DNA of 64,000 nucleotides from Pocillopora verrucosa. Taxonomy: Eukaryota > Cnidaria > Anthozoa > Scleractinia > Pocilloporidae. Position numbers and translations under genes: made by a program. The stretch lies in NCBI RefSeq assembly GCF_036669915.1, contig NC_089325.1:8943392-9007391 (forward strand), written 5' to 3'. Each line of letters starts with the position of its first letter. Position 1 is the stretch's first letter. Below are positions 6,001 through 64,000 of this stretch, one piece after another. The notes under the pieces were generated by a model. That model had not been told where the DNA came from, did no database searches, and saw only the letters and a program-made list of their open reading frames with translations.

Positions 6001-7463
6001 GCGGGTGAAAAGTCCAGGTCAGACACAAAATCTGAACAGAGGAAAAGGCCAATAAAAAAACAGACTAAGTAAGAGAGATACCTTCCTCTCCAGATCAAAT
6101 GACTGTTTGAAAATGTTTAAGCAAAGCTGTACAACCGAGCAAGGAAAAATCATCTAGTAACCATAAAATTAGTAATTCTAATGATAATAATAATAAATGT
6201 CCTGCATGAGCATGGAGGAAAGGCAGTGACTGTTCCTTCCTTCCTACCTCTTCAAGAGGAAGAACACCAAGACTTCCTCCACCTGAGGGATGAATATACT
6301 CTGTAAATGGCGATTACCAAATTTGTACATTGCCCTACTTCTGCAAGGTTTGTATTCTGTACTTCTTAAGAGAAAATTTAATCACTTTACAAAAATTTTT
6401 CTACATCTTTTCTGCCTTTCCATGACTTAAAACAAAGTGGCTGGTTCTTGAATCAAGTGAAAACAAACAAGTTATAGATGCAATTTTTATCTTTGTTTTT
6501 TCAACATGCAATTTTCAATAAAGGTTAAAATAGATGGTGTGATAAGTCTACCTCCTGCATCCACATTGAATGCCATGAAGATGTCACTTGCTTTGATGTG
6601 ATTTCCATGGGAGCTCATTAGGCTTCCAACTCTTATATCAGTAATGCACTCCTAGAAAACAGGTACATTGTTTGGTCAAGTATATAATGTGTTCAAAGCA
6701 ATATTCATAGAACAACACCCTAGTGTGCTCTAATAAAAGGATCCACACTCAAACCACCAAAAGAAGTTTTGACTTGCTCTTCCCTTGAGAAAACCTCAGA
6801 TGGTGGCAATGGCCAAGTTGCGTGGCAGCAAGCCTCTGTCATCATATGATGTATTAATGAAAATCCTGGTTAAAAATCCCTATATATAATTTACGCCCCC
6901 AAAACCCCACGCTTTACTACAAATTGGAACACAAACCATTCCTCCACTCCTATCTGGCGCTGGCTTTGCATCAAAAATAAAAAAACTTTCAAATACACTG
7001 AACTGCTGTGCTGCCCACCCGCACTCCCCTCGGACCCCAGGATAATAGGGATTTGACCTTAGTTGATTCATCACTGCAGAGAGTTGAACCACAAATTAAA
7101 CAAAGCCTTCAACTGCTGAACATTTGCAGCAGAATAGATTTCCAAGGTTTACGATGATTGCAGTCAAGCATTATTTCTTGCATTTAATCTTAGATGCCAG
7201 ATAAAATGAAATTGCCTTAGTTTAGATTCATATCGGTGCTCTCAAACCCTAATATCTTAAGTAATTATACTGCTTGTCTACGAACGCAAGTAGTCTATGA
7301 AAAAAAAAAGAACTGAACATAAGTCAAAAGGTAAACTGAAATTTGCGAAGTACGTAGACTGGCAATCGTCATTGAAAAAAAGATCGTGAACAACGGTACC
7401 TACCTCTTTCTTCGGAATCTTCGGAGCTGCATTTCGATATTTGGAAGCCTTAAAACGATGCAT
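1..7463 (-). CDS. CORO7: Coronin-7 (partial; continues past the left edge)
   Basis: Coronin-7 is a double-propeller WD40 coronin of the Golgi/endosome that controls F-actin assembly and trafficking. The start is MHRFKASKYR at 7463. Exons recognised going down are 7404-7463, 6552-6651, ~6202-6282, 5960-6031, 5659-5738, 5396-5437, 5121-5191, 4543-4619, ~4372-4419, 3739-3825, ~3582-3665, ~3143-3205, 2580-2643, ~2187-2320, ~1862-1949, ~1514-1660, ~905-1225 and ~400-479. Diagnostic pieces are NHIKAS, DLDFSPADGRLL, IKLWQIPEEG, FDPDTNMLFLAGK, DFHEDLFPDT (the end of the first coronin unit) and DKPGRLPDSGLPV in the linker to the second propeller. Several exons need a 1-nt correction: exon 5 shifts frame before LLPQQP, and the exon 3 donor at about 6201 reads GA where GT is expected. 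Below position 400 the frame could not be followed. Family identity is certain; exon edges are approximate. Confidence 0.9.
4170..4353. mobile_element. Foldback (hairpin) element
   Basis: The outer 30-70 bp on each side are reverse complements. CAATTGGTTCATACATCA at the left matches TGATGTATGAACCAATTG at the right, continuing into TATGAAGCAC...AAGTTCGGAGAG against CTCTCCAAACTTCCGTGTGCTTCATA. The loop is about 50 bp. No coding potential fits. It lies in a coronin-7 intron and is probably a non-autonomous foldback/MITE-type element, although no clear target duplication was found. Confidence 0.6.
4660..5008 (-). mobile_element. tRNA-derived SINE-like insertion with 13-bp target duplication
   Basis: The direct repeats CCCTTTGATTAAT flank the insert at 4647-4659 and 5009-5021. 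Inside, on the minus strand, 4855-4784 forms a tRNA-like head: acceptor halves GGTTTGT/ACAGACC pair, the A box reads TAGCTCAGTTGGTAGAGC and the B box GAGTTCAAATCCC. The anticodon stem is imperfect, so this is a tRNA relic and not a working tRNA. The head lies between inverted arms (about 4709-4768 against 4946-5007), and a 30-bp segment beginning ACTGCAAATATATGAAAATC occurs on both sides. It sits in an intron of coronin-7. Confidence 0.65.
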
Positions 7464-8326
7464 CTTTGCAATTTATCCGATATAAACAAATAATTCACTC
7501 AGACAGCTGTTTAATGCTTTTCAGGCACGCGAGAAATCTCGTGAAATCGCCAACTTCCTCCACCGGGACAACCCCGCAATGCCATATGGGAATGGTTTTA
7601 AAAATTTCCCGCTCTGCTGGAAAATGGGAATGGTAAGGTTCACAAGAAAACAGGAATAATTTACTCAAATTAACTCAATCTTCTGCTCCTCTTACCGCAA
7701 AACATATTCCCAATGAAAGTTCCCTAAGTGTTAGCTTCCTAAGCTTCAGGAAACAGAACTCATCACCCATCAAGATGAAGATAAAATGGCTACTGTCTCG
7801 GATCAAGTGAGTAGCAAGGAAGGAGGGTTCTCCTCTCCCAAACAAGTCTTCCACGAAAAGTGCAAGTTTTCATTCACATTCATTTGATATTTATTTACAT
7901 TGATTTTTTTTACATATACTAGTTCATTTGCCCAAACATAATGTTGGGTATACAGAGCTCAATGTAAATTTGAAGTTTAAATATACTCTTTGGCTCTGAA
8001 ACCATAGAAAGCAGTCTTTGCTAATGACATTTTTCTTATGCTCCCTTTAATGTCACCTATTCTCCCACCATTTCTTGCTGGAACATTCTATCAATTCACT
8101 GAAATCTGAACAAGATACCCCATTGTATGCACTTGTGTTTTGCTTGTCATGCTTGTCAAGTATTTCATGTTTGAAACTCATGATAGGTAAAGCTTTCTTT
8201 TTCACTATTTCACCTAAGAAACAAATTTGAGTTAGATGGAGTTTCACTCTACTTGTGGTATGTACAATACAAATTGCCTAGTTTCCAGCCAAAAAAAATT
8301 CTGCTACTTATTTCCCACACAGCAAA

Positions 8327-8426
8327 GTGCAATGAAATACAAATCACATATTTCACCCATGGATTGATAGTTTTGAGTGCAATGAAATACAGATCACATA
8401 TTTCACCCATGGATTGATAGTTTTGA
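8327..8426. repeat. Two-copy 50-bp tandem repeat (left arm)
   Basis: Two adjacent units of 50 bp begin GTGCAATGAAATAC and end GATAGTTTTGA, and differ at one or two bases. The mirror copy is at 62396-62495. It lies in the 3' flank of the TFPT/HMG gene. Confidence 0.85.
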
Positions 8427-8691
8427 TGAGCTTTTAGTAAACAAACTAGAGAGTAACAACAAATATCATTTGAACTCATAAAAGTTCAGCTGAAAATATG
8501 TATTCTTTTAGCTGCAACTCCTAGCTACCAAATTAAGAAAAATAGCCTGTTTGGTAGGGAAAGAGAAAAAAAGGTAATTACATGAATCATCTTAGGGTAA
8601 AAAAATTCAGAAATTTTTTAAGTACCAACAAAAAATTATATTGAGGACACTTATTTAAAATGGCAAGAAACTGGGAAACACACTACAGAAA

Positions 8692-10738
8692 CTAAAGAAA
8701 TGAATCTTGAGGAGAAGAGTGCATCTCTTGATAGTTGTCAAAACCACCATCTTCCCCGTGAGGGAAAGAAGCTGCGGCATCGGAATGTGTGGAATATTTA
8801 GCTGCATGGAGGCAAGGCTTTGTGGAGACAGTGGGTTGTTTAGAGTTGGTGATTCCACTGAGCTTCTCTGATCAGGAGAACCCTTGTTCAAAATGACTGC
8901 TGTGGTCTTTGGGGTTGATGATGCAACCGCTTTCTGTTTTGGAGTTTTGGTCCTTGCTTTCTTTACAGGAGGTTCTTTGGGGACCTTGTCTGATGTGTAT
9001 TTTTTCATTTCTTTTTCATATCTCTCTTTATCTTTTTCATACATTTCATAGTAAACCTAAAAGATAAAAAAACAACCAATAAACAGTCTTTACATGTAAA
9101 GAAGTAGGTGATGACTTCAGAGACATTGTTGGCATTACCCGTATGTAAGAAATGCCAATATAATTCCAAGAGTCAGTTTAGCTTTTATATTGTTTTTAAC
9201 TGTTTTCCTCTTCCTGCTAGAGGACTTTCCTATAGACAATGCAGGATTGAACAACGTGTAACATTGTATAACAATGTCCTTTCTTTTCCAAACCTTTTTA
9301 TCTTCAGTGTCCAAGTTATTCCATTCCTTGGCAAGTGACTTAGTTAACTCATGGTGTCCTATATGGGGATCCTTCTGATCATCTTGCATAACAGTGCGCT
9401 GCTGTTGGCAGTACATAAAGAAAGCATTGGCTGGTTTTTTAGGTGCATTTGGATCTTTGTCTTTGTCCTTGTCCTTTGAGTTATCACGTTTCTTGTTCTT
9501 TTTCACAGGTGGTGAGTCTGGACTCATAATTCACCAGGTAAGAGGGGAGAAGGTGCAGATTTTGGAAATGCCTCTGAAACTATTTCTGAGAGTAGTTCAG
9601 CCTGGGGAGAGAAAAAAATTGCTATGTTAGATTTTTAGATTGAGATATGAAAAAAAAAAAAAAAAGCAAACAAACAAATGTAGCCATACATGTTGCATCC
9701 CAGTTAATTAAAGAGTCTTTAAAGGTAATACTTGATGATGACTCCCACACAAAAATTGGTTGGATAAATCACTTCTTTTTACAACTAAACATTCAATGAT
9801 GATGTGATATACTACAAGGTAATCAATGGAAATATAAAATTAAATTGAGCCTCACCTGAAATGGTGGCTGTGCAGCTCGATAGTCATCATTATACTCATC
9901 TAATCTGTCCTTGAGAAAGCTAAAAACATAATAGATTGAAAAACTAAGAGATATATTTATTTATCATAACATATTCACCCTTTCAACTCCAGAAGTAATC
10001 ATTAAATACTATCTTCTTAAAATTGTCGTACACTGACAACCAAACAGGTAATGAAAACTAGAAAATTATCAGATTAGACATAGCCTTGGTAAACTTCAAT
10101 TCTCTCAAACAGCCCGCAAAGAAACTTAAGGCCACCAGTTAGGGGAGTTAGCCTTTGAATCCTTTTAGTGAAATTGTTTATTTTTTTTTTTTAGCATATT
10201 CCTTAGTTATGATCACAACGATATTTTGTTGTTGCGAGACTTCTCTTTCTATCATTGCTTTTCTGTAATTTTTCCCTAGTTCTTATTACATGTCAGCAGT
10301 AGCTCTTTCGCTGAATCGTACTCTGTTCATCTCTATCAGTAACAACTTGAGATAAAAGTTTTCTTTTCAAAATTATTTTATTGCTTCCAAGTTAGGAGAC
10401 TATCGGTAAAATTCACCGAGACAGGCAAAATTCTCTTACCTTCGCTGTTTTCGATAGCGCTTTAGAAGAGTCTTAACATGGTATATACGATTGACTAATC
10501 TCTCGTTCTCCTGTGGATCAAAACAAAGTTAAGGTGATTTTCAACTTCGTCAACACTCAGTAATTAGTAGCCCTGCATTTCAAGATATGTAGTTCTCCCA
10601 AAACCGTAGCGTACATCACTGCTCGATCTGCCTGCAGTGTTTAAGTAAAGTAAAGTATTTTGTTTGCACACAGTGTCGTGATCTGTAAAAAGATCGAAAG
10701 ACACATTTTGATCTTCTTCATCCGCCATGTTAAATTCT
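8692..10738 (-). CDS. TFPT-like / HMG-box protein, left copy, frame-shifted at the 3' end
   Basis: This is the mirror copy of the gene at 60086-62130, starting at 10738 (MADEEDQNV...). The five exons are recognisable, including the HMG-box exon with DPNAPKKPANAFFMYC. One residue differs from the right copy in the box (KDPHIG here, KDPNIG there). A 1-nt loss near 8757, after LLSLTG, shifts the frame, so the acidic C-terminal tail is lost as written. The damage is of the same 1-nt-gap type seen all along this arm and may be a base-calling fault. Confidence 0.8.
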
Positions 10739-12508
10739 AGCACTACCCAGAGGCCATTGCGTTCATATTTCTTTTGACAGTTTCACGGTAGTCCCTCAGG
10801 GATTCTCGGTTTCCTCCTAATGAGAGATGCTACTGGAGACGAGGTTGCAGTCCCTAAATTTTCCTCAACGATTTTTCGTCACTTTTTCTAATGGTTTTCA
10901 CTTCATTTGAACAACTAACCATACTGTGCGTAAAAAGGAAAAAAAAAAAGCAAAAATTGAACTTGTTAATTTCATCTAGACCCACAAAAAAAATTGATAG
11001 GGTAAAAAAAAGCTGTGCCTTGCATCATACTAGAGATTTTACGTGGAGGGTGCTATCCTCTATCTCGAATCAACGCGCTTGTTGCAACAAAGCGATTCAG
11101 CTCCTCTTCTCTATCAGCGTTTATTACAAAAAGGTAAACATCAAGTCCAATTGTTAATAGGCGTGGGCGACCGACAAGAAACCCCTAGCTACTTTTGCCA
11201 TTTCAGCGATACCACGAAAATCTCAGTGTTATAGCTGCTAGTGTTAGCTGTTTGATGAATGTCTCAAAATGCAGTTAACTTCACGTAACTCACTGAAAAG
11301 AATAATGGAATTTCATTTACTCAAATACTTTTAAGTGACAAAACGGTCGCTTGAAAATTTCACTCTGTGACATCCATCTATTAGGGCCTTTCCGCACTTG
11401 CGAAAAAGTTGTTTCTTTTGAAAATTTTTCTGTCATCACCAACATTTTTCAAGTAGGGATGCTTTGTCGCGACTTGATAATTTTTGCCGAAGCGGAAAAA
11501 TCTTCAAACACGCCGCCGATAGAATTTGTCCTGGGTAAAAACTGGACAAAATCGACTGAATAAACAAAACTGTGATAAACTTGTCTATCATTTGTCGTAA
11601 TATTGATCGCGAATATTGTCTTTTATCGCTTAAGTCGGGGATTCTAAAATTTTAAAACGACTTAGGATAAATCCTTGAAATTGGAGTCGCACAGAATCCT
11701 TTGCCAAACTATGCTGGCCGGTCTTATGAACAGATCAGGCGCTGACGGAATTTGACGGCTTTGACATTATGGATGCGAATGTAACTGACGAAACCAAAAT
11801 TTGCCCTTTGATTTTATCGGGAAAATTCTAGGTTTGTCTGCTAATGCGGAAAGGCCATTACATACGAAAATTACAGAATCCTCAGATTATTTTGAGAAAC
11901 GTCGGTGTCCACGGGTTATGATACATTATGGGTACAAAATCACGTTTAACCATTCTATTCCCAGGTTTCAACTCAAATGCATTGTAAAGACAGATGCAAC
12001 ATTCTTCTGCATTCAGATGGATAACAAAAGTCACAATGTTTTCGTATTAGCCTTAGTTAGGTGGTAATTACTGAAGAAGTAATGTTTATACAGTACAATC
12101 ATTTCAACCTGAATCTTTTGTTTTAAAGTCATCTCACGATTGTTATATTAAAACAAAATGTAATGTTTCGATTAAGTGACTAACAATAGGTTCAGTTGGC
12201 TTATTAAGAATCGTTTTGCGGACTGTGCCGTTAACTACCGTAAAAGCAACGACACCTCACCGATTGTAATTTCTATTAAATGGTCAACCTACATGTGTCC
12301 AATCCACCTTCGTAGGGGAGACAATTCGTCGCCCTTTTAAATTTCTAAATCACAGGATCATCTAGCAATCATATAGGTGCACAAATGAAATCTTGAACAA
12401 AGGCTGCTTTCTGAGCCTCACAGACCCAGAAGGATTAACAGCTTCCTTGTGATAAAACAAAGCGCTGAATCAAACAACTGAAGATACAAAAACTCCTTGC
12501 TTCCTAAA
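10739..12508. other. Intergenic stretch between TFPT/HMG and the mucin-like gene (left arm; mirror 58304-60085)
   Basis: The two genes lie on the same strand, with the mucin-like gene upstream. Apart from the 473-bp MITE-like element I see only short random frames, poly-A/T runs near 10940 and 11005, and no conserved protein segment. It probably contains the TFPT/HMG promoter and the mucin 3' UTR. Confidence 0.5.
11384..11856. mobile_element. MITE-like element (left arm copy)
   Basis: The same 473-bp element seen from the other strand runs from GGGCCTTTCCGCACTTGC to CTAATGCGGAAAGGCC, with ATTA on each side. The equal length in both arms shows that it was inserted before the arms diverged. 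Confidence 0.65.
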
Positions 12509-15500
12509 TCAGCTCTGATTTTTCCTTACTTAACTCTTGCGGACCATCGCCAAAGGTAAGAACAGGATTATCATAACCTGCGCCGAATCAGCCAAGGAAC
12601 TCTCCTGACTATCTATCAAAAGTTGACGACTTCCAACCGACCCCGCTGACCTGGAAACGTCTTCTTTAGATTCAGCAACAGTCATTTGATTGTCCGACAG
12701 CCTTGGAAGGTTCCACTCTGGCATACCCAATGCGCCGACATTAAATTTATCTTGTTGATGAGCATCACCATTGGTTGTGCCAGTTAGTTTACCGCGGCCT
12801 CTAGCAGGTGACCTATTGAAAGAATACGCTCCAACTTTAAATTCATCATCAGCGTTGGGATCAGCAGCTGTCGCATCCATTTCCACAGGTTCTCCATAGT
12901 AGTTCACCCTGGAGTAGGAACTCGCACGAGGGATACCATGAAATCGCCTTAGTTCATAATGTGTGTCGTTGGTAAGGAAAAAGCTTCCCTCACGTCGATC
13001 CTTGCGACATCGGAAAATAAGCACACAGATGCCGACGAAGAAAACAACAGCCATCAAGGTACCAAATCCTATGTAAAGATAAAACGCAATTTTATTGCTC
13101 TTGGCTTCGGTTGTTGGGGCCTGTGTAACTGGTGACGTGGGACGAACCACTTCCAACTTACTCGCCTTGAACTTTTTTTCTCCCAGAGTTACACTAAAGT
13201 TTCCGCTGTCGACAATTTTCTTTAAAACTTGTACCACATTTTTTAATCCACCTGATTGGTGAATAGTCATAGGAACTCGAATTGAACCACATGCAATATT
13301 CCCCATCACAATTGCCGATCTTGGAATCCTAAGTTTACTGGATACTTCCATCCGCACCGCCTCTCGAAAATCGTTCTCCCTATCTTTGTTGCTCTTGACG
13401 TAGTTACAATCTCCATCAAACGACAACAACGGTCTCATTGTCATAAACAAGTGGTTGTTCAGTCACTACTTGTGAAGATGAAGGAGTTGGTTTTCTCGCG
13501 GTGGTCGCTGATGAGATAACGATCGATTTTGAAGCCACAGTATTTGATGTCGTTGAACTACCAAAGAGTTGTCATTGTGTTTACTGGTCCAATTTCAGAG
13601 ATCGACGCTGAAACAGTTGGACTACCTGCGAGCATTGAACGCGACGATGTTGGGGTAACTTTAAGACTTGAGCTCGAAGTTGTACTACTACCTGCAGCAC
13701 CTGAAGTTAAAGAGGCTGTGGGAGTTGCCGAGACTGATACGGAAGGTACACCACTAACAACAGGATTCGAGCTTGAAAGTGCCTCACTGACAAAAGGACT
13801 TGTACTTGAAAGTGCTGCACTAACAACAGAACTCGAGCTTGAAAGTGCTGTACTAACAATAGGACTTGTGTTTGAAAGTAAAGTAGTAGCTGTACGGCGT
13901 GAACTTGAAAGTGCTGCACTAACAACAGAACTTGTACTTGAAAGTGTAGCTATAGCTGTACGGCGTGAACTTGAAAGTGCTGCACTTTACAACAGGACTT
14001 GTGCTTGAAAGTGCTGCCGTAACTGTAGAGCGTGAGCTTGAAGGTACCACAATGCTTGAGCTTGATTTTACTTGTGTGAAAAACGGCTTGAGCTCGGAAT
14101 AACTACAGGACTTGAAGGAGCTGCACTAAAAGCACGACTTGAACTCGAAGATGCAGGTAAAGCTAAAGACCTAGACCTTGAAGACGCTGCTCCAACCACA
14201 GGACTTGAGCTTGAAGAGCTGTGCTAACTGCAAGACGTGAACTAGAAGGTACAGGTGACGCTATAGATCTGAAGCTTGAAGACGCTACACTATCTATGGG
14301 ACTTGAGCTCGAAGGTGCTGGAATAACTGAGAAACTTGAGCTTGAAGATGCTGGGATAACCATACCACTTGAGCTTGAGGGCGTCGCACTAACTAAAGGA
14401 ATTGAGCTTGAAGGCACTGCACTAACCACAGGACTTAAGCTTGAAGGCACTGCACTAACCACAGGACTTGAGCTCGAAGGCACTGCACTAACTACAGAAC
14501 TTGAACTTGAAGGCACATCACTAACTACAGGACTTGAGCTTAAAGATGCTGGAAAAACTGCTGGACTTGAGCTTGAAGATGCCATATTAATTACAGAGCT
14601 TGGGCTTGAATGGACTGGAGTAACTGCTGAAGTTGAGCTGGAAGGCATCACATTAACTGCAGGACTTGAGCTTGAAGATACAGTAGCAACTGCTGGACTT
14701 GAAGGTGCCATACTAACAGCAGGACTCAAGCTTGAAGGCGCCGAACTAACTGCTGGACTTGCGCTTGGAGATGCTGGAGTAACTACTTGACTTGAGCTTG
14801 AAGATACCGCACTAACTACACGACTTGGGCTCGGGTGTGAACTGCCCACTGCAGGTCTTGAACTTGAAAGCACTGCACTAGCTACAGGGGTTGAGCTTGA
14901 AAGCACCACACGTATTGTAGGGGCTGACATTGAAAGCAACGTACTAGCCACTGGGGATGAGCTAAAGGCACCGTACTAGTCATAGGGCTTGAGCTTGATA
15001 GCACCGTTCTAACCAGAGCAGTTGAGCTTGAAGACACTTCACAGTCATTGGGGTCGAGCTTAAAGTCGACGTACTCACAACAGCACTTGACTTTGCAAGT
15101 GCTTCACTGACAACAGTACTGGAGCTTGAGGCTGCCGGATTGACGACAGGACTTCGGCTTGAAGGTGAAGCATTAACTACTAAGCTTGAACTTGGAACTG
15201 CTGCACTAACTGTAGGGCCTGAGCTTGAAGGAGCTGGAATAGCTGAAGAAGTTACGCTGAGGGAAACTGCGGGAACTGAGGTTGGAGGTGCTGCACTTGC
15301 TATTGACTTTCTTGAGTTTAAAGATGACGAGTTTCCTATAGCTGCCCTTCTCTGTCTACTATGAACGCGGTTGTATTCTTCCCGAAACGCTTCTAGAATG
15401 ATGTTTTCAATTTTTCTTCCAGAAGAGAAAGTGATTTCTCTTGACTCTAGGCGATTTCCATTGTTTCCTGTGAAATTGAGGTCCTTAGGTCTGGGTGTTT

Positions 15501-15516
15501 TCATTGAAATCACATT
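12509..15516 (-). CDS. Mucin-like transmembrane protein, left copy, broken by many small indels
   Basis: This is the mirror of 55286-58303. Read against the right copy it has 1-2 nt changes at about ten places: GACTAGTGAAG reduced to GACTGTGAAG near 15045, a lost G near 14965, a lost T near 14216, a homopolymer 5 versus 6 near 14085, an extra base near 13987, two losses near 13560, GTGTTT reduced to GTTT near 13415, a lost C near 12577 and two bases near 12520. The longest surviving frames are therefore 12530-13450, 14163-14951 and 14980-15513. The changes are mostly deletions scattered evenly, as in uncorrected long-read sequence. A decayed allele is the alternative. Confidence 0.8.
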
Positions 15517-16260
15517 CTAGAAAGAGAAAGATAAAAAAAACCTCGATGAGTTCGAGAAAAAAGTAAGCAAGGATCGAGGATTGGGGTCAGTTAACCCACA
15601 CAAGGAACACTTAATCCGGCCACAACAAATTTTACTGACTGATATAACTATTCCAATTGAACACGATGATAGTCGCAAATAATATCATATTAATTCACAA
15701 AACTATAATTTAGTGATCAACTGAAACCACACCAAGCTTCAAAAGTGAAGGAGTCGGAGTATGGCATACAGGCTCTAAAACCTTCGCGGGGCTTATTTTA
15801 CCAATATCTACATCTAATCAAAGTTCATTACTAAAATGCACATTTTCCAAAAAGGTAAGTTGAAATCTTAATAATTTGGCGAGTTGTGAAAAACATATTC
15901 GTGGAAAAGTTAAAAATTATCCAGGTGTCATAATCTCCGTTAGAAGTGAACATTTGGAAGCAAACGGCATCATTCGGGAGATTCTATTCCAACTTAGTAG
16001 CACTTTGTTCTCAGCAAACACGAAACGTTAAAAAAGAAAAAAAAAAAAAAGAGGTCCTGGCTCTGACTTTGGTTTTCTACCGAGGACCCAAATGGCGCAA
16101 ACTTCTAAATCTTCTAACTGAAAAAGAAAATGTCTTGCCGAGAGTGACAAGTGTTGGTAATTTTCCCAGCCTTCAACCTTACTTTTCACTTGGTTTACGC
16201 ATACTAGACCACCAAAAACGTGGTCGTGAAAGCTACCTGGAGAAAACGTGACTGAAAAAA

Positions 16261-22045: not shown

Positions 22046-29372
<7,327 letters not shown>

Positions 29373-48839: not shown

Positions 48840-50879
48840 CTTGAACGAACAGGTTTAACGTTCACCAACTTTCAGATGATTTATCCGCGTTTTTGGGAAA
48901 GTTCTGATCTTAAAGAAACTTAGCTAGCGAAGGAAATTACATTTCTTCACAGCTTAGCTGGACAAGCATCAAGCTCGGCTAAAGATTTTGAGTATGCAGT
49001 ACTTTGATCAGCTGAGAGCAACAAAACAATCAGCTGTCATGTACTACTCAGTAACTGTCTACTTACTTTTGAGAAATCGGCCTTATCCTTTGGGACCCTT
49101 AGCTTACAAAAAGAATTATGTAGGTGTCAGCGAGGTAGTAGAAAGTAAGCCTTCTTAATTTGTCAGTTTAGTTTAGGCTAATTCATTATTCAACTTTTTA
49201 TTCGTTCTTAATCTTGTAATCCGACCTGCGTCTTTAAAATCTTATCACATTTACAGTTCTGAAAAAAGACTTCTCGGAAAATATGGCAGGCAAAGCGGAG
49301 GAAGAAATTATGTAACATGCGTATCATGTTGAAATTTCCAGAGGTTTGGATTTGTAGCAGATAATTATGTTAAAAGCCTGGCTGGAAATCTCACGTCTGA
49401 AAGGTTTGAAGTCAGCCATACTTAATTGTTTCGAGAGAAGCGCATCAACTTTCGTGTTCGTGATTACATTTGTTCTTTAGACCGTAAAGCGAAAAAAAAT
49501 TGAGGCGATTTCCGCCACAGCAGAACGCACCCGACATTTTTTCATTTCAAGAGCCCTCTAGTTTCCACTCCTAATGATCCATTTTCTTTCAAAAGAAAAT
49601 TATTTTCTATGAGTTTGTGCCTCCTGTGAAAGGAATTTTACAATCTCCTAAATGAAACTGACCGTTTAAAATTCATTAGTTCAAAATGAAGCTTATAATT
49701 TCCGGCGTCCACAGGACAAGTCGGCACATGATAGCCGTTACCTCAAAATGTGTGTGTGTTTCTCTCCACTCTCTCAAGATGTTCATCCCTGCTACAATGC
49801 TAACAACTCTTTCATTCTCTTCGACAGCTCTTATTTTCACCGACAATGACTGCACGCTTTCACATTGTAACACCAATATCCTCTTCTTATAATCCTTTCA
49901 CAATCGGCCATAGTGAGACCTAGTGGAATAAACAGATTCACTTCGCGTTGTCATTTGTTTTAATTGTTTCTTCATTTTTAGCATGTCTTGCCTGAGGACT
50001 ATTACAGTAATTGTACTTTGATTTCGACTGTAGCGCTGTAATACAAAAATAGGACAGAGAAGACAGAGAAAGTTTAAAAAATGCCTGAAAAAAAAAACAA
50101 GCTTTCAAAAACTTCTAAACTCAGATTATTCTGTGACATAAACTTGACACTGTGTGACATGTAACAGTGACAGTGAAAATGTTTTATAAAGATGAGCCCT
50201 GGAAAATTTAACGTTGTACTGAACAGTTGTTGACAGCTTTTAGAAGTTTTGCCGAATAGGATTGACAGCAGGGGACCTAAAAGATGCAAAGGAGATTTGC
50301 ACTCGATCAGTAACAGTTGCATTTGTTACAGACACGAAAGCATAACATTCATCTTTCCACTAAATCGAGACAGAGGAGAGAGAATTGGCTGTAGGGTTAG
50401 CTTTTGGCTCTTATGCTTTAAATTCCCAAAATCCGCTATAAACCAAACACTTCGCAAGAACTTCATCAACATTTAACCTTTTTTGCCGCAAGAAAAGAAG
50501 TCGCAATTTTATTATTCCACATTGTTAATTTCTCTTTCAATTGTGTCATTATCATTCTTGACGTTGCCGTGGTTCGGAAAGAGACTGAAATTTCCAGATT
50601 AACCAAGGTTATATTTTTGTTGGTTAGTTGATAATTACTCAGTCACGGTGACGTAACTGTAAATTAACGGCGGACTCTAACAGAGTATCCTGCATGCGCG
50701 AGTACGTTTGGCTGAACAAATGGGTGCGAGTTCTTAGCGGTAGTGAGGTCTAATATCTTCTGTTGTTTGTGTTATATTCTTTAGATTTTTAACAATATCA
50801 ACAGTAGGGATAGTGATACGCTATGATATATTTGCCAACGCCAAGTTTGTTGAGCTCATAAAGCATCGCTTTAATTTGA

Positions 50880-53800: not shown

Positions 53801-54541
53801 AATACCCAATTACACCTTGTGCCATTTCTGAAGGTGATGACTTTTTTATCTTTAAGGTTTGTTACCCTTGGAAACCAAACTAATAATAAGGATGGTCAAA
53901 GAAAGTGGCAAGGCAGCTGATGAAAAGGTAGCTTGCTACATTTTTGTTTAAATGTTATAATATCCTATCCTGTATTATTTACAGAGAATTCAGAGTCATA
54001 TTAGTGCAATATGTCATCAGTTGGTTAGTTTGATAGAGAAGAGGGCATGTAGTGAGGGCTGTTTTACTTAAAACTGAATTGAAATGCCAATCGGGCGAAT
54101 AAATCGGGTATTAAACTTGATCGATCACGAAGTGTAACTGCATAGTGACAGTCATAAAAGATCATTCTCTCAAAGAGTGTGAACATTTCAGTGTACCTAT
54201 CAATTTATCGATTTTCTCTGTCGAGTATTTGCAGACGTGTCGCCTTTCGAGGCCACTAGGAAGGAAGGAAAAAAAAATTCCGTTCCTCTTCGTTCAGCAA
54301 ACGTTTGGGCCAAATTTCAAGGCGCTCTGTCAATCCCACAATTTCTATGAATTCATTTGAAGAGGAGACATCATGTGGCAATCGTATTGCGAGTCTTCGT
54401 CTTCCAGAGGTTAAGAAGCATTTCACGCCCCCTCGAAGAATTATGTCAACATCGCGCTCCCACTGTGAACCGCCAGCCAATGATGTAGTTGAACCCCTGA
54501 CCTTCACAGAAGGCATGGTGGCGCTTTGCAGGAAAGGATAG
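50880..54541 (+). CDS. Unrecognised single-pass membrane protein (type II-like), right copy
   Basis: Inferred exons are 50880-50991, 51230-51440, 53320-53444, 53475-53561, 53782-53833, 53857-53927 and 54192-54541. The start MKLSHFVYKRRIFKSYK is basic and is followed by a hydrophobic helix (MLASIFLYLGIGAFIS), suggesting a type II or signal-anchor protein. Later pieces are RILLIADLGSSMIDAEKL, ENFLPWLLEKKPNFLICVAV, PFIQYPITPCAISEGLLPLE and, in the last exon, CTYQFIDFLCRVFADVSPFE and a basic Ser/Arg-rich tail. Phases agree except at the 53561/53782 junction, which does not join in frame. The last exon needs ten A at about 54269-54278 where nine are present, so this copy is also imperfect. I do not recognise the family. 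It is divergent from BBS7. Confidence 0.5.
52327..52633. repeat. Tandem repeat, 191-bp period (right arm)
   Basis: This is the mirror copy of 18254-18560, with two units in both arms. It lies within the intron between 51440 and 53320. Confidence 0.8.
52733..52829. other. About 96-bp segment present only in the right arm
   Basis: The left arm joins the two flanks directly (near 18151-18160). The extra block runs from ATAATTGATGAGGC to GTGATAATAG. It has no terminal inverted repeat and no clear target duplication. It is best read as an allelic or post-duplication indel in an intron. Confidence 0.7.
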
Positions 54542-55285
54542 TTTTTCAGTCACGTTTTCTCCAGGTAGCTTTCACGACCACGTTTTTGGTGGTCTAGTAT
54601 GCGTAAACCAAGTGAAAAGTAAGGTTGAAGGCTGGGAAAATTACCAACACTTGTCACTCTCGGCAAGACATTTTCTTTTTCAGTTAGAAGATTTAGAAGT
54701 TTGCGCCATTTGGGTCCTCGGTAGAAAACCAAAGTCAGAGCCAGGACCTCTTTCTTTTTTTTCTTTTTTAACGTTTCGTGTTTGCTGAGAACAAAGTGCT
54801 ACTAAGTTGGAATAGAATCTCCCGAATGACGCTGTTTGCTTCCAAATGTTCACTTCTAACGGAGATTATGACACCTGGATAATTTTTAACTTTTCCACGA
54901 ATATGTTTATTCTTACAACTCGCCAAATTATTAAGATTTCAACTTACCTTTTTGGAAAATGTGCATTTTAGTAATGAACTTTGATTAGATGTAGATATTG
55001 GTAAAATAAGCCCCGCGAAGGTTTGAGAGCCTGTATGCCATACTCCGACTCCTTCACTTTTGAAGCTTGGTGTGGTTTCAGTTGATCACTAAATTATAGT
55101 TTTGTGAATTAATATGATATTATTTGCGACTATCATCGTGTTCCATTGGAATAGTTATATCAGTCAGTAAAATTTGTTGTGGCCGGATTAAGTGTTCCTT
55201 GTGTGGGTTAACTGACCCCAATCCTCGATCCTTGCTTACTTTTTTCTCGAACTCATCGAGGTTTTTTTTATCTTTCTCTTTCTAG
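54542..55285. other. Stretch upstream of the mucin-like exon (mirror 15517-16260)
   Basis: This lies between the stop of the unrecognised gene and the mucin acceptor. A minus-strand frame at 54732-54550 and a plus-strand frame over the same bases are both open, and neither matches anything I know. A short hydrophobic frame, MILFATIIVFHWNSYISQ (near 55110-55163), resembles a signal peptide, but its phase does not join the mucin exon. It probably holds 3' UTR plus promoter or intron. Confidence 0.35.
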
Positions 55286-58200
55286 AATGTGATTTCAATG
55301 AAAACACCCAGACCTAAGGACCTCAATTTCACAGGAAACAATGGAAATCGCCTAGAGTCAAGAGAAATCACTTTCTCTTCTGGAAGAAAAATTGAAAACA
55401 TCATTCTAGAAGCGTTTCGGGAAGAATACAACCGCGTTCATAGTAGACAGAGAAGGGCAGCTATAGGAAACTCGGCATCTTTAAACTCAAGAAAGTCAAT
55501 AGCAAGTGCAGCACCTCCAACCTCAGTTCCCGCAGTTTCCCTCAGCGTAACTTCTTCAGCTATTCCAGCTCCTTCAAGCTCAGGCCCTACAGTTAGTGCA
55601 GCAGTTCCAAGTTCAAGCTTAGTAGTTAATGCTTCACCTTCAAGCCGAAGTCCTGTCGTCAATCCGGTAGCCTCAAGCTCCAGTACTGTTGTCAGTGAAG
55701 CACTTGCAAAGTCAAGTGCTGTTGTGAGTACGTCGACTTTAAGCTCGACCCCAATGACTAGTGAAGTGTCTTCAAGCTCAACTGCTCTGGTTAGAACGGT
55801 GCTATCAAGCTCAAGCCCTATGACTAGTACGGTGCCTTTAGGCTCATCCCCAGTGGCTAGTACGTTGCTTTCAATGTCAGCCCCTACAATACGTGTGGTG
55901 CTTTCAAGCTCAACCCCTGTAGCTAGTGCAGTGCTTTCAAGTTCAAGACCTGCAGTGGGCAGTTCACACCCGAGCCCAAGTCGTGTAGTTAGTGCGGTAT
56001 CTTCAAGCTCAAGTCAAGTAGTTACTCCAGCATCTCCAAGCGCAAGTCCAGCAGTTAGTTCGGCGCCTTCAAGCTTGAGTCCTGCTGTTAGTATGGCACC
56101 TTCAAGTCCAGCAGTTGCTACTGTATCTTCAAGCTCAAGTCCTGCAGTTAATGTGATGCCTTCCAGCTCAACTTCAGCAGTTACTCCAGTCCATTCAAGC
56201 CCAAGCTCTGTAATTAATATGGCATCTTCAAGCTCAAGTCCAGCAGTTTTTCCAGCATCTTTAAGCTCAAGTCCTGTAGTTAGTGATGTGCCTTCAAGTT
56301 CAAGTTCTGTAGTTAGTGCAGTGCCTTCGAGCTCAAGTCCTGTGGTTAGTGCAGTGCCTTCAAGCTTAAGTCCTGTGGTTAGTGCAGTGCCTTCAAGCTC
56401 AATTCCTTTAGTTAGTGCGACGCCCTCAAGCTCAAGTGGTATGGTTATCCCAGCATCTTCAAGCTCAAGTTTCTCAGTTATTCCAGCACCTTCGAGCTCA
56501 AGTCCCATAGATAGTGTAGCGTCTTCAAGCTTCAGATCTATAGCGTCACCTGTACCTTCTAGTTCACGTCTTGCAGTTAGCACAGCTCTTTCAAGCTCAA
56601 GTCCTGTGGTTGGAGCAGCGTCTTCAAGGTCTAGGTCTTTAGCTTTACCTGCATCTTCGAGTTCAAGTCGTGCTTTTAGTGCAGCTCCTTCAAGTCCTGT
56701 AGTTATTCCGAGCTCAAGCCGTTTTTTCACACAAGTAAAATCAAGCTCAAGCATTGTGGTACCTTCAAGCTCACGCTCTACAGTTACGGCAGCACTTTCA
56801 AGCACAAGTCCTGTTGTAAATGCAGCACTTTCAAGTTCACGCCGTACAGCTATAGCTACACTTTCAAGTACAAGTTCTGTTGTTAGTGCAGCACTTTCAA
56901 GTTCACGCCGTACAGCTACTACTTTACTTTCAAACACAAGTCCTATTGTTAGTACAGCACTTTCAAGCTCGAGTTCTGTTGTTAGTGCAGCACTTTCAAG
57001 TACAAGTCCTTTTGTCAGTGAGGCACTTTCAAGCTCGAATCCTGTTGTTAGTGGTGTACCTTCCGTATCAGTCTCGGCAACTCCCACAGCCTCTTTAACT
57101 TCAGGTGCTGCAGGTAGTAGTACAACTTCGAGCTCAAGTCTTAAAGTTACCCCAACATCGTCGCGTTCAATGCTCGCAGGTAGTCCAACTGTTTCAGCGT
57201 CGATCTCTGAAATTGGACCAGTAAACACAATGACAAACTCTTTGGTTAGTTCAACGACATCAAATACTGTGGCTTCAAAATCGATCGTTATCTCATCAGC
57301 GACCACCGCGAGAAAACCAACTCCTTCATCTTCACAAGTAGTGACTGAACAACCACTTGTTTATGACAATGAGACCGTTGTTGTCGTGTTTGATGGAGAT
57401 TGTAACTACGTCAAGAGCAACAAAGATAGGGAGAACGATTTTCGAGAGGCGGTGCGGATGGAAGTATCCAGTAAACTTAGGATTCCAAGATCGGCAATTG
57501 TGATGGGGAATATTGCATGTGGTTCAATTCGAGTTCCTATGACTATTCACCAATCAGGTGGATTAAAAAATGTGGTACAAGTTTTAAAGAAAATTGTCGA
57601 CAGCGGAAACTTTAGTGTAACTCTGGGAGAAAAAAAGTTCAAGGCGAGTAAGTTGGAAGTGGTTCGTCCCACGTCACCAGTTACACAGGCCCCAACAACC
57701 GAAGCCAAGAGCAATAAAATTGCGTTTTATCTTTACATAGGATTTGGTACCTTGATGGCTGTTGTTTTCTTCGTCGGCATCTGTGTGCTTATTTTCCGAT
57801 GTCGCAAGGATCGACGTGAGGGAAGCTTTTTCCTTACCAACGACACACATTATGAACTAAGGCGATTTCATGGTATCCCTCGTGCGAGTTCCTACTCCAG
57901 GGTGAACTACTATGGAGAACCTGTGGAAATGGATGCGACAGCTGCTGATCCCAACGCTGATGATGAATTTAAAGTTGGAGCGTATTCTTTCAATAGGTCA
58001 CCTGCTAGAGGCCGCGGTAAACTAACTGGCACAACCAATGGTGATGCTCATCAACAAGATAAATTTAATGTCGGCGCATTGGGTATGCCAGAGTGGAACC
58101 TTCCAAGGCTGTCGGACAATCAAATGACTGTTGCTGAATCTAAAGAAGACGTTTCCAGGTCAGCGGGGTCGGTTGGAAGTCGTCAACTTTTGATAGATAG

Positions 58201-58303
58201 TCAGGAGAGTTCCTTGGCTGATTCGGCGCAGGCTTATGATAATCCTGTTCTTACCTTTGGCGATGGTCCGCAAGAGTTAAGTAAGGAAGAAAATCAGAGC
58301 TGA
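55286..58303 (+). CDS. Mucin-like single-pass membrane protein with SEA-like juxtamembrane domain (5' exon missing)
   Basis: One large terminal exon follows the acceptor TTTCTCTTTCTAG and is open for 1004 codons; the first ATG is at 55298. In order it has a short N-terminal region with a possible furin site (HSRQRR, ~residues 51-56); about 600 residues of Ser/Thr/Val/Pro repeats built on an 11-residue, 33-nt unit such as VVSAVPSSSSP; and a compact domain at ~690-795 (FREAVRMEVSSKL, GSIRVPMTIHQ) of SEA-like character. A membrane helix follows at ~811-836 (YIGFGTLMAVVFFVGICVLI), then a 168-residue tail with YSRVNYYGEPVE and AYDNPVLTF. It is a probable O-glycosylated type I surface protein. No signal peptide is encoded here, so an upstream exon is expected; I could not place it. 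The exact family is not recognised. Cnidarian skeletal-matrix or cell-surface mucins are the nearest idea. Confidence 0.75.
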   Translation, partial: NVISMKTPRPKDLNFTGNNGNRLESREITFSSGRKIENIILEAFREEYNRVHSRQRRAAIGNSASLNSRKSIASAAPPTSVPAVSLSVTSSAIPAPSSSGPTVSAAVPSSSLVVNASPSSRSPVVNPVASSSSTVVSEALAKSSAVVSTSTLSSTPMTSEVSSSSTALVRTVLSSSSPMTSTVPLGSSPVASTLLSMSAPTIRVVLSSSTPVASAVLSSSRPAVGSSHPSPSRVVSAVSSSSSQVVTPASPSASPAVSSAPSSLSPAVSMAPSSPAVATVSSSSSPAVNVMPSSSTSAVTPVHSSPSSVINMASSSSSPAVFPASLSSSPVVSDVPSSSSSVVSAVPSSSSPVVSAVPSSLSPVVSAVPSSSIPLVSATPSSSSGMVIPASSSSSFSVIPAPSSSSPIDSVASSSFRSIASPVPSSSRLAVSTALSSSSPVVGAASSRSRSLALPASSSSSRAFSAAPSSPVVIPSSSRFFTQVKSSSSIVVPSSSRSTVTAALSSTSPVVNAALSSSRRTAIATLSSTSSVVSAALSSSRRTATTLLSNTSPIVSTALSSSSSVVSAALSSTSPFVSEALSSSNPVVSGVPSVSVSATPTASLTSGAAGSSTTSSSSLKVTPTSSRSMLAGSPTVSASISEIGPVNTMTNSLVSSTTSNTVASKSIVISSATTARKPTPSSSQVVTEQPLVYDNETVVVVFDGDCNYVKSNKDRENDFREAVRMEVSSKLRIPRSAIVMGNIACGSIRVPMTIHQSGGLKNVVQVLKKIVDSGNFSVTLGEKKFKASKLEVVRPTSPVTQAPTTEAKSNKIAFYLYIGFGTLMAVVFFVGICVLIFRCRKDRREGSFFLTNDTHYELRRFHGIPRASSYSRVNYYGEPVEMDATAADPNADDEFKVGAYSFNRSPARGRGKLTGTTNGDAHQQDKFNVGALGMPEWNLPRLSDNQMTVAESKEDVSRSAGSVGSRQLLIDSQESSLADSAQAYDNPVLTFGDGPQELSKEENQS

Positions 58304-58957
58304 TTTAGGAAGCAAGGAGTTTTTGTATCTTCAGTTGTTTGATTCAGCGCTTTGTTTTATCACAAGGAAGCTGTTAATCCTTCTGGGTCTGTGAGGCTCA
58401 GAAAGCAGCCTTTGTTCAAGATTTCATTTGTGCACCTATATGATTGCTAGATGATCCTGTGATTTAGAAATTTAAAAGGGCGACGAATTGTCTCCCCTAC
58501 GAAGGTGGATTGGACACATGTAGGTTGACCATTCAATAGAAATTACAATCGGTGAGGTGTCGTTGCTTTTACGGTAGTTAACGGCACAGTCCGCAAAACG
58601 ATTCTTAATAAGCCAACTGAACCTATTGTTAGTCACTTAATCGAAACATTACATTTTGTTTTAATATAACAATCGTGAGATGACTTTAAAACAAAAGATT
58701 CAGGTTGAAATGATTGTACTGTATAAACATTACTTCTTCAGTAATTACCACCTAACTAAGGCTAATACGAAAACATTGTGACTTTATTGTTATCCATCTG
58801 AATGCAGAAGAATGTTGCATCTGTCTTTACAATGCATTTGAGTTGAAACCTGGGAATAGAATGGTTAAACGTGATTTTGTACCCATAATGTATCATAACC
58901 CGTGGACACCGACGTTTCTCAAAATAATCTGAGGATTCTGTAATTTTCGTATGTAAT

Positions 58958-59430
58958 GGCCTTTCCGCATTAGCAGACAAACCTAGAATTTTCCCGATAA
59001 AATCAAAGGGCAAATTTTGGTTTCGTCAGTTACATTCGCATCCATAATGTCAAAGCCGTCAAATTCCGTCAGCGCCTGATCTGTTCATAAGACCGGCCAG
59101 CATAGTTTGGCAAAGGATTCTGTGCGACTCCAATTTCAAGGATTTATCCTAAGTCGTTTTAAAATTTTAGAATCCCCGACTTAAGCGATAAAAGACAATA
59201 TTCGCGATCAATATTACGACAAATGATAGACAAGTTTATCACAGTTTTGTTTATTCAGTCGATTTTGTCCAGTTTTTACCCAGGACAAATTCTATCGGCG
59301 GCGTGTTTGAAGATTTTTCCGCTTCGGCAAAAATTATCAAGTCGCGACAAAGCATCCCTACTTGAAAAATGTTGGTGATGACAGAAAAATTTTCAAAAGA
59401 AACAACTTTTTCGCAAGTGCGGAAAGGCCC
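58958..59430. mobile_element. MITE-like element with GGCCTTTCCGCA terminal inverted repeats (right arm)
   Basis: The ends read GGCCTTTCCGCATTAGC at the left and GCAAGTGCGGAAAGGCCC at the right, a 12-bp perfect inverted terminal repeat. They are flanked by TAAT on both sides, consistent with a 4-bp target duplication. The 473-bp interior has no transposase-like reading frame, so a non-autonomous DNA element is likely. The mirror copy is 11384-11856. Confidence 0.65.
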
Positions 59431-60085
59431 TAATAGATGGATGTCACAGAGTGAAATTTTCAAGCGACCGTTTTGTCACTTAAAAGTATTTGAGTAAATG
59501 AAATTCCATTATTCTTTTCAGTGAGTTACGTGAAGTTAACTGCATTTTGAGACATTCATCAAACAGCTAACACTAGCAGCTATAACACTGAGATTTTCGT
59601 GGTATCGCTGAAATGGCAAAAGTAGCTAGGGGTTTCTTGTCGGTCGCCCACGCCTATTAACAATTGGACTTGATGTTTACCTTTTTGTAATAAACGCTGA
59701 TAGAGAAGAGGAGCTGAATCGCTTTGTTGCAACAAGCGCGTTGATTCGAGATAGAGGATAGCACCCTCCACGTAAAATCTCTAGTATGATGCAAGGCACA
59801 GCTTTTTTTTACCCTATCAATTTTTTTTGTGGGTCTAGATGAAATTAACAAGTTCAATTTTTGCTTTTTTTTTTTCCTTTTTACGCACAGTATGGTTAGT
59901 TGTTCAAATGAAGTGAAAACCATTAGAAAAAGTGACGAAAAATCGTTGAGGAAAATTTAGGGACTGCAACCTCGTCTCCAGTAGCATCTCTCATTAGGAG
60001 GAAACCGAGAATCCCTGAGGGACTACCGTGAAACTGTCAAAAGAAATATGAACGCAATGGCCTCTGGGTAGTGCTAGAATTTAAC

Positions 60086-62130
60086 ATGGCGGATGAAGAA
60101 GATCAAAATGTGTCTTTCGATCTTTTTACAGATCACGACACTGTGTGCAAACAAAAATACTTTACTTTACTTAAACACTGCAGGCAGATCGAGCAGGTGA
60201 TGTACGCTACGGTTTTGGGAGAACTAACATATCTTGAAATGCAGGGCTACTAATTACTGAGTGTTGACGAAGTTGAAAATCACCTTAACTTTGTTTTGAT
60301 CCACAGGAGAACGAGAGATTAGTCAATCGTATATACCATGTTAAGACTCTTCTAAAGCGCTATCGAAAACAGCGAAGGTAAGAGAATTTTGCCTGTCTCG
60401 GTGAATTTTACCGATAGTCTCCTAACTTGGAAGCAATAAAATAATTTTGAAAAGAAAACTTTTATCTCAAGTTGTTACTGATAGAGATGAACAGAGTACG
60501 ATTCAGCGAAAGAGCTACTGCTGACATGTAATAAGAACTAGGGAAAAATTACAGAAAAGCAATGATAGAAAGAGAAGTCTCGCAACAACAAAATATCGTT
60601 GTGATCATAACTAAGGAATATGCTAAAAAAAAAAAATAACAATTTCACTAAAAGGATTCAAAGGCTAACTCCCCTAACTGGTGGCCTTAAGTTTCTTTGC
60701 GGGCTGTTTGAGAGAATTGAAGTTATACCAAGGCTATGTCCATAATCTGATAATTTTCTTAGTTTTCATTACCTGTTTGGTTGTCAGTGTACGACAATTT
60801 TAAGAAGATAGTATTTAATGATTACTTCTGGAGTTGAAAGGGTGAATATGTTATGATAAATAAATATATCTCTTAGTTTTTCAATCTATTATGTTTTTAG
60901 CTTTCTCAAGGACAGATTAGATGAGTATAATGATGACTATCGAGCTGCACAGCCACCATTTCAGGTGAGGCTCAATTTAATTTTATATTTCCATTGATTA
61001 CCTTGTAGTATATCACATCATCATTGAAATGTTTAGTTGTAAAAAGAAGTGATTTATCCAACCAATTTTTGTGTGGGAGTCATCATCAAGTATTACCTTT
61101 AAAGACTCTTTAATTAACTGGGATGCAACATGTATGGCTACATTTGTTTGTTTGCTTGTTTTTTTTTTCATATCTCAATCTAAAAATCTAACATAGCAAT
61201 TTTTTTCTCTCCCCAGGCTGAACTACTCTCAGAAATAGTTTCAGAGGCATTTCCAAAATCTGCACCTTCTCCCCTCTTACCTGGTGAATTAATGAGTCCA
61301 GACTCACCACCTGTGAAAAAGAACAAGAAACGTGATAACTCAAAGGACAAGGACAAAGACAAAGATCCAAATGCACCTAAAAAACCAGCCAATGCTTTCT
61401 TTATGTACTGCCAACAGCAGCGCACTGTTATGCAAGATGATCAGAAGGACCCCAATATAGGACACCATGAGTTAACTAAGTCACTTGCCAAGGAATGGAA
61501 TAACTTGGACACTGAAGATAAAAAGGTTTGGAAAAGAAAGGACATTGTTATACAATGTTACACGTTGTTCAATCCTGCATTGTCTATAGGAAAGTCCTCT
61601 AGCAGGAAGAGGAAAACAGTTAAAAACAATATAAAAGCTAAACTGACTCTTGGAATTATATTGGCATTTCTTACATACGGGTAATGCCAACAATGTCTCT
61701 GAAGTCATCACCTACTTCTTTACATGTAAAGACTGTTTATTGGTTGTTTTTTATTATCTTTTAGGTTTACTATGAAATGTATGAAAAAGATAAAGAGAGA
61801 TATGAAAAAGAAATGAAAAAATACACATCAGACAAGGTCCCCAAAGAACCTCCTGTAAAGAAAGCAAGGACCAAAACTCCAAAACAGAAAGCGGTTGCAT
61901 CATCAACCCCAAAGACCACAGCAGTCATTTTGAACAAGGGTTCTCCTGATCAGAGAAGCTCAGTGGAATCACCAACTCTAAACAACCCACTGTCTCCACA
62001 AAGCCTTGCCTCCATGCAGCTAAATATTCCACACATTCCAATGCCGCAGCTTCTTTCCCTCACGGGAGAAGATGGTGGTTTTGACAACTATCAAGAGATG
62101 CACTCTTCTCCTCAAGATTCATTTCTTTAG
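60086..62130 (+). CDS. TFPT: TFPT-like INO80-complex subunit with HMG box
   Basis: The exons are 60086-60196, 60307-60377, 60901-60964, 61217-61525 and 61765-62130, giving 306 codons with all phases agreeing. Residues ~24-82 (KYFTLLKHCRQIEQENER, then FLKDRLDEYNDDYRAAQPPF) resemble the conserved helical region of TFPT, the INO80F subunit of the INO80 remodeller. A basic linker leads to an HMG box at ~132-205 (DPNAPKKPANAFFMYC, KSLAKEWNNLD, YYEMYEKDKERYEKEM). A Ser/Pro-rich tail ends in an acidic stretch. The expected role is nuclear chromatin remodelling. As recalled, human TFPT has no HMG box, whereas yeast Nhp10 has one, so this form may link the two. The symbol is given for the N-terminal homology. 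Confidence 0.82.
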
Positions 62131-63357
62131 TTTCTGTAGTGTGTTTCCCAGTTTCTTGCCATTTTAAATAAGTGTCCTCGATATAATTTTTTGTTGGTAC
62201 TTAAAAAATTTCTGAATTTTTTTACCCTAAGATGATTCATGTAATTACCTTTTTTACTCTTTCCCTACCAAACAGGCTATTTTTCTTAATTTGGTAGCTA
62301 GGAGTTGCAGCTAAAAGAATACATATTTTCAGCTGAACTTTTATGAGTTCAAATGATATTTGTTGTTACTCTCTAGTTTGTTTACTAAAAGCTCATCAAA
62401 ACTATCAATCCATGGGTGAAATATGTGATCTGTATTTCATTGCACTCAAAACTATCAATCCATGGGTGAAATATGTGATTTGTATTTCATTGCACTTTGC
62501 TGTGTGGGAAATAAGTAGCAGAATTTTTTTGGCTGGAAACTAGGCAATTTGTATTGTACATACCACAAGTAGAGTGAAACTCCATCTAACTCAAATTTGT
62601 TTCTTAGGTGAAATAGTGAAAAAGAAAGCTTTACCTATCATGAGTTTCAAACATGAAATACTTGACAAGCATGACAAGCAAAACACAAGTGCATACAATG
62701 GGGTATCTTGTTCAGATTTCAGTGAATTGATAGAATGTTCCAGCAAGAAATGGTGGGAGAATAGGTGACATTAAAGGGAGCATAAAGAAAATTGTCATTA
62801 GCAAAGACTGCTTTCTATGGTTTCAGAGCCAAAGAGTATATTTAAACTTCAAATTTACATTGAGCTCTGTATACCCAACATTATGTTTGGGCAAATGAAC
62901 TAGTATATGTAAAAAAAATAAATGTAAATAAATATCAAATGAATGTGAATGAAAACTTGCACTTTTCGTGGAAGACTTGTTTGGGAGAGGAGAACCCTCC
63001 TTCCTTGCTACTCACTTGATCCGAGACAGTAGCCATTTTATCTTCATCTTGATGGGTGATGAGTTCTGTTTCCTGAAGCTTAGGAAGCTAACACTTAGGG
63101 AACTTTCATTGAAAATATGTTTTGCGGTAAGAGGAGCAGAAGATTGAGTTAATTTGAGTAAATTATTCCTGTTTTCTTCTGAACCTTACCATTCCCATTT
63201 CCAGCAGAGCGGGAAATTTTTAAAACTATTCCCATATGGCATTGCGGGGTTGTCCCGGTGGAGGAAGTTGGCGATTTCACGAGATTTCTCGCGTGCCTGA
63301 AAAGCATTAAACAGCTGTCTGAGTGAATTATTTGTTTATATCGGATAAATTGCAAAG
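62131..63357. other. Gene-poor stretch between TFPT/HMG and coronin-7
   Basis: This holds the 50-bp tandem repeat and, at 62608-62768 (plus), an exon-like open frame after a TTTCTTAG acceptor. That frame encodes about 53 residues ending CSSKKWWENR and is intact in both arms (left 8053-8213). On the minus strand, 63036-63016 reads MATVSDQ followed by a GTGAGT donor, a possible first exon divergent from coronin-7 for which I found no partner exons. The mirror is 7464-8691. Neither candidate has a recognised family. Confidence 0.4.
62396..62495. repeat. Two-copy 50-bp tandem repeat (right arm)
   Basis: This is the mirror of 8327-8426. The units start at 62396 and 62446 with TCAAAACTATCAATCC. 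Because both arms have two copies, the duplication predates the split of the arms. Confidence 0.85.
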
Positions 63358-64000
63358 ATGCATCGTTTTAAGGCTTCCAAATATCGAAATGCAGCTCCGA
63401 AGATTCCTAAGAAAGAGGTAGGTACCGCTGTTGTTCACGATCTTTGTTTCAATGACGATTGCCAGTCTACGTACTTCGCAAATTTCAGTTTACCTTTTGA
63501 CTTATGTTCAGTTCTTTTTTTTTTCATAGACTACTTGCGTTCGTAGACAAGCAGTATAATTACTTAAGATATTAGGGTTTGAGAGCACCGATATGAATCT
63601 AAACTAAGGCAATTTCATTTTATCTGGCATCTAAGATTAAATGCAAGAAATAATGCTTGACTGCAATCATCGTAAACCTTGGAAATCTATTCTGCTGCAA
63701 ATGTTCAGCAGTTGAAGGCTTTGTTTTAAAACTTGACCATAGTGTGTTAGAGCCTTGTATGCTTATTTAAGGGCTATGTTTAATTTTGTGGTTCAACTCT
63801 GCAGTGAATCACTAAGTCAAATCCATTTCCTGGGGTCCAGGGGGGTGGGGCAGTTATTTGATGCAAGCCAGATAGGAGTGGAGATGGTGTGTTCCCAGTA
63901 AGCGTGGGGTTTGTAAATTATATATAGGGATTTTAACAGGATTTCAATTAATACATCATATATGAGAGCTTGCTGCCAGCAAACTTGGCCAATTGCCACA
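63358..64000 (+). CDS. CORO7: Coronin-7, first exon of the mirrored copy (runs off the window)
   Basis: Exon 1 is 63358-63417 and encodes MHRFKASKYRNAAPKIPKKE, followed by the donor GTAGGTAC. This is identical to the left copy (7404-7463). The N-terminal basic block matches the start of coronin-7 proteins. The rest of the window is intron 1. That intron is visibly more diverged from its left partner than the exons are, including an extra block of about 60 bp near 63725-63775. The remaining exons must lie beyond the right edge if the palindrome continues. Confidence 0.8.

Follow-up and report, generated by a model that had tools for sequence, protein, structure and literature searches.

A 57-kb palindrome on a coral chromosome is very probably one locus written twice by the assembly

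A 64,000-nucleotide stretch of a coral chromosome (C14:8943392-9007391, hereafter the window; genome of 353.4 Mb in 52 contigs) carries what appears to be a giant mirror-image duplication, a palindrome of ~57 kb in all. Does the chromosome have this structure, or was it made by the assembly? We examined the window together with 100 kb on each side of it, 264 kb in total.

The palindrome, first noted in a preliminary description, is indeed present in the sequence. Comparison of the window with itself by BLASTN confirmed an inverted repeat with arms 7098-35384 and 63726-35601, composed of collinear minus-strand blocks with identities of 98.4-99.6%: 7098-16993/63726-53808 (99.3%), 17415-18150/53566-52828 (99.6%), 18150-22637/52732-48293 (98.4%) and 22700-35384/48286-35601 (98.9%). 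In addition, 22,040 unique 40-mers were common to both arms in collinear inverted order. A chance repeat as the source of the palindrome was therefore ruled out by these two lines of evidence. The arms are separated by 216 bp at 35385-35600 (the centre), exactly the unpaired segment described earlier. The features of the window are as follows.

1..6666, minus strand: coronin-7 in the left flank; the gene runs on to the left of the window
4783-4855, minus strand: tRNA-Thr (GGT), between two coronin-7 exons
6803..7097, plus strand: outer fringe of the left arm, aligning with 63772-63999 only with many gaps
7098..35384, plus strand: left arm, with an HMG-box gene (minus), a 1004-codon ORF (minus), BBS7 (plus) and ATXN10 (minus), broken in places
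about 12520-15513, minus strand: left counterpart of the 1004-codon ORF, with 10 frame-breaking differences
22046..29369, plus strand: BBS7 of the left arm, its frame broken e.g. at 26022 and 29357
31002..35005, minus strand: ATXN10 of the left arm, its first exon among those out of frame
35385..35600, plus strand: the 216-bp centre, sequence upstream of ATXN10
35600..35601, no strand: abrupt fold-back junction, with neither N nor a shared base at the breakpoint
35601..63726, minus strand: right arm, an inverted second copy of the left arm, frames intact where tested
35976..39986, plus strand: ATXN10 of the right arm, in frame
40113-40412: small DUF4535 protein (Pfam) between ATXN10 and BBS7; left counterpart at 30574-30875
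41618..48839, minus strand: BBS7 of the right arm, 19 matches to protein P0001
55289..58303, plus strand: right-arm 1004-codon ORF, intact, Ser-rich and carrying 33-bp repeats
63727..64000, minus strand: degraded tail of the right arm, which stops at 5,339 N starting with the next base

A weak alignment of the arms extends outward to about 6803/63999. In this outer fringe (6803-7107 versus 63999-63772), 11 mismatches and 81 gap positions were found in 307 columns, and the tail 63772-63999 has 228 bases versus 305 in its left counterpart, about a quarter of the bases being absent. We read this tail as an unpolished contig end.

BBS7 was identified by a match to a solved BBS7 and by protein search, whereas ATXN10 (PF09759) and coronin-7 (PF16300) were each identified by a Pfam family and a protein match. 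With these three genes, the DNA is therefore that of an animal, and the best named matches were from stony corals. In gap-free matches, the right-arm BBS7 exons reached 84-100% with P0001, the best BBS7 match; relative to P0001, the identity of the Stylophora pistillata protein stood at 95.8% over 670 residues and that of Desmophyllum pertusum at 94.7% over 719. Linkage in other corals was judged solely from equal contig sizes. By this measure, matches to BBS7, ATXN10 and coronin-7 shared a contig size in S. pistillata (2,105,177) and D. pertusum (1,312,239), as did those to coronin-7 and ATXN10 in Oculina patagonica (33,958,336), Acropora palmata (24,502,734) and Montipora foliosa (49,316,441), and those to BBS7 and coronin-7 in Acropora cervicornis (3,334,120). 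Matches in Nematostella, and those to BBS7 and ATXN10 in Dendronephthya, were on contigs of differing size. The left flank and the arm together look like an old block in stony corals.

The left flank also contains an interspersed element of about 330 bp (4030-4356), which is partly its own inverted repeat (4167-4355 matched itself in reverse). At least 39 further copies, at 87-90%, were present among the 40 that were scored of 3,019 candidates from a first look at the genome; the element is a high-copy family, MITE-like by look. When positions 3001-6900 were used as a genome-wide probe, no second full copy was detected, and the matches comprised one interspersed element and short self-matches only.

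To learn what kind of copies the arms are, we compared them base by base. The anchored alignment had 27,763 matching columns of 28,599, and the differences fell into 122 indels, 35 isolated substitutions and 21 complex changes. Indels of 1-2 bp alone numbered 101, versus the 35 isolated substitutions in 27.8 kb. Bases were absent from the left arm in 76 of these small indels and from the right arm in 25 (binomial p = 4e-7), although in any single one of the 101 cases either arm may be the one in error. Of the 60 one-base gaps in the left arm, 49 fell within runs, the run being 2 or 3 long for 44 of them; the right arm had fewer such gaps, more often in long runs. Isolated substitutions amounted to 0.13% over the arms and were absent from five of fifteen 2-kb bins.

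The protein-coding portion of the arms was similarly skewed. In 22 coding pieces totaling 5,535 bp (15 from BBS7, 6 from ATXN10 and the 1004-codon ORF), the arms showed 16 frame-breaking differences, 2 in-frame differences and 3 substitutions. Biological decay does not yield five frame breaks per substitution. The pieces represent 15 of the 19 right-arm BBS7 matches and 6 of the 11 right-arm ATXN10 matches, the others having been dropped as they crossed introns, were weak or overlapped other matches. The dropped matches had no frame change in the right arm, including the weakest one (ATXN10 residues 230-256), and further breaks in the left arm, where ATXN10 residues 44-133 were in three frames and BBS7 residues 600-654 in two. 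The 19 right-arm BBS7 matches jointly covered residues 1-719 of P0001, one frame each, whereas left-arm BBS7 shifted frame within exons and lost residues 37-40 and 715-719; the left/right pattern of ATXN10 was like that of BBS7. The right arm is the in-frame copy relative to both P0001 and P0241 and for the 1004-codon ORF. The latter had no detectable Pfam family. By eye, it has a membrane-like segment close to its C end. On the antisense strand, frames stay open for as many as 430 codons, which its repeats probably cause. The frame of the DUF4535 protein was open in the right arm and broken in the left by a one-base difference at 30745.

One frame break was also detected in the left flank. 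In 1,464 bp of coronin-7 matches (15 gap-free matches in the window, omitting three gapped ones and cross-matches between the two halves of the protein), an exon near 1122 was out of frame relative to P0121, so low accuracy is not strictly confined to the arm. This break is probably another one-base assembly error.

The preliminary description had regarded the divergence of the arms as allele-like. We rejected this view: indels dominate over isolated substitutions, most left-arm one-base gaps are in runs and the frame breaks occur in one arm. The differences are instead error-like and lie mostly in one copy (76 of 101 small indels and the 16 frame breaks), as expected for a duplication made by assembly. 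For the most part, the arms look like a single haplotype sequence recorded twice, at two levels of base accuracy.

Several larger differences are too big for base-calling noise and may represent true variation between haplotypes. The right arm alone has a 96-bp stretch (52732-52827) and a second one of roughly 100-115 bp, and the left arm alone has about 150 bp plus some 55-60 bp. The content of 16994-17414 differs from that of 53807-53567, each arm having stretches absent from the other, possibly true haplotype sequence mixed into one arm. Exon 2 of left-arm BBS7 (about 22470-22640) is a scramble of nearby words. It is possible that the larger differences other than the tail reflect haplotype mixture or local assembly error.

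The surroundings of the palindrome were also informative. The right arm abuts a run of 5,339 N, which begins at the first base after the window, so that the arm as seen here may be cut short by it. It is the one N run in the 264 kb examined, and in principle it could stand for sequence that the data provider withheld. Immediately past it, 529 bases (69340-69868 in window-based numbering) matched 35067-35600 in direct orientation with 97.2% identity. They repeat the innermost part of the left arm together with the complete centre, after which the sequence continues into new, non-palindromic DNA. Therefore, position 35600 has a second, non-palindromic continuation, and the centre is ordinary sequence whose true neighbor lies beyond the gap. 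A direct copy at this place would follow from a locus that truly runs from left flank through arm and centre to right flank, the inverted arm being an intruder. The second copy of the centre (69655-69868, direct orientation, 97.2%) was accompanied by no further copies in the 264 kb. A comparison of the junction with the copy past the N run and with the reverse complement of the left arm revealed no base shared between the two sides of 35600/35601. As this junction contains no N, something must have joined it. Farther into the right flank, direct duplications were observed between 87064-91427 and 93082-97665 (about 89% over some 4.4 kb) and between 148202-150053 and 151484-153335 (99% over 1.85 kb; window-based numbering).

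Within the 529-base piece, 6 substitutions separated it from the left arm end and centre (Fisher p = 1e-4 versus the arm-arm rate), which is a hint only, as the sample is small and the piece, lying at the edge of a contig, may contain errors. On these figures, the rate of isolated substitutions between the arms is about a ninth of the rate to this piece.

Taken together, these data make it very probable that the palindrome is an assembly artefact in which one coral locus is represented twice; this assessment covers the artefact as a whole and includes the forms that involve a fold-back read or two haplotypes. The locus would read, in its true order, coronin-7, the HMG-box gene, the Ser-rich ORF, BBS7, ATXN10 and the sequence past the N run. 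The left arm with the centre would be this locus in correct orientation and with lower base accuracy, and the right arm a better polished second piece that was inserted backwards before the true right-hand neighbor of the locus. The likeliest route would be that scaffolding set a polished contig, about 28 kb long, between its neighbors the wrong way round, and that unpolished long-read sequence was used to fill its proper place. This sequence of events explains why the inverted copy is the better one. We assign it about half of the confidence placed in the artefact as a whole. A genome-wide search with a 1-kb arm probe (30001-31000) matched only the two arms, which on this probe speaks against another complete copy of the arm elsewhere in the genome.

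In a second route, a nanopore fold-back read, in which a molecule is read on one strand and then back on the other, might have extended a contig end. This would account for the geometry, i.e., an almost perfect palindrome that breaks at its middle. PMC12870357 documents the artefact for nanopore data: about 0.55-0.6% of the genomic reads were fold-backs, and PacBio HiFi reads were almost free of them. The preliminary description had listed a chimeric read as a third option, and this fold-back form of it is possible. However, we reasoned that such a read should leave like errors in both arms, whereas here the tested frames are unbroken in the right arm and disrupted in the left. Moreover, the second strand starts 216 bp from the end of the first, just outside the 200-bp limit used in that study. 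Because the arms are so unequal in accuracy, we rank a fold-back read below the mis-oriented contig, as a possible but tentative alternative. Neither route has a biological function.

It is rather unlikely that two haplotypes of the locus were assembled head to head. The insert-sized differences between the arms would fit this idea, and the piece past the N run looks allelic relative to the left arm end and centre. However, diverged haplotypes would predict more substitutions than the 35 isolated ones in 27.8 kb, which fall short of the allelic level suggested by 6 in 529 (a small sample that may hold errors) and leave a third of the 2-kb bins free; in addition, the differences are mainly indels, and the coding ones break frames in one arm. 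The preliminary description, which offered a join of two haplotypes by the assembler as one option, thus pointed to the right class of explanation, an assembler join, but its plain two-haplotype form is weak.

A real and very recent inverted duplication, the other option favored at that time, loses its ground along with allele-like divergence and is highly improbable. It might have arisen, for instance, if a replication fork switched template and returned beyond the second arm, leaving a short third copy. Such an event would also yield an inverted copy together with the 529-bp direct copy, and the lack of N at the fold-back junction likewise speaks for it; but the excess of indels over isolated substitutions, and of frame breaks over substitutions in coding sequence, does not fit recent neutral divergence, which should be dominated by substitutions, and instead of both arms passing without a break into unique flanks we found a joined left arm and a right arm whose degraded outer end meets N. 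Equally improbable is a variant in which a young 28-kb ATXN10-BBS7 inverted duplication formed by a double template switch and the left arm was poorly assembled, with the polishing reads drawn to the right arm.

The distinction has practical consequences. Gene counts derived from this assembly would wrongly double BBS7, ATXN10 and their neighbors, with the second copies appearing broken. The locus also provides an example of how an assembly palindrome can be separated from a true one without reads, the discriminating signs being the ratio of indels to substitutions, one-sided frame breaks and the sequence on the far side of the gap.

How does the palindrome compare with known systems? Origin-dependent inverted repeat amplification (PMC10766183) and related template-switch inverted duplications likewise place inverted copies around a short spacer; the present case is unlike them in having no shared junction base, an indel-dominated divergence and N at the outer end. 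It shares the near-perfect palindrome and central breakpoint with the long-read fold-back artefact, as defined on reads in PMC12870357, whereas the palindrome here is known from the assembly alone, its arms are strongly unequal in accuracy and its offset of 216 bp exceeds the 200-bp limit. What is observed is two inverted copies of unequal accuracy, with N at the outer end of one and an overlap across the N run. A mis-oriented or duplicated contig or haplotig at a scaffold gap is an error type of long-read assemblies. The locus departs from it in that the inner junction contains no N, which additionally requires the action of a gap filler or a chimeric read, and it resembles this error type in that the second copy meets N, the inner end of the locus recurs in the sequence past the gap and the two copies differ in base accuracy.
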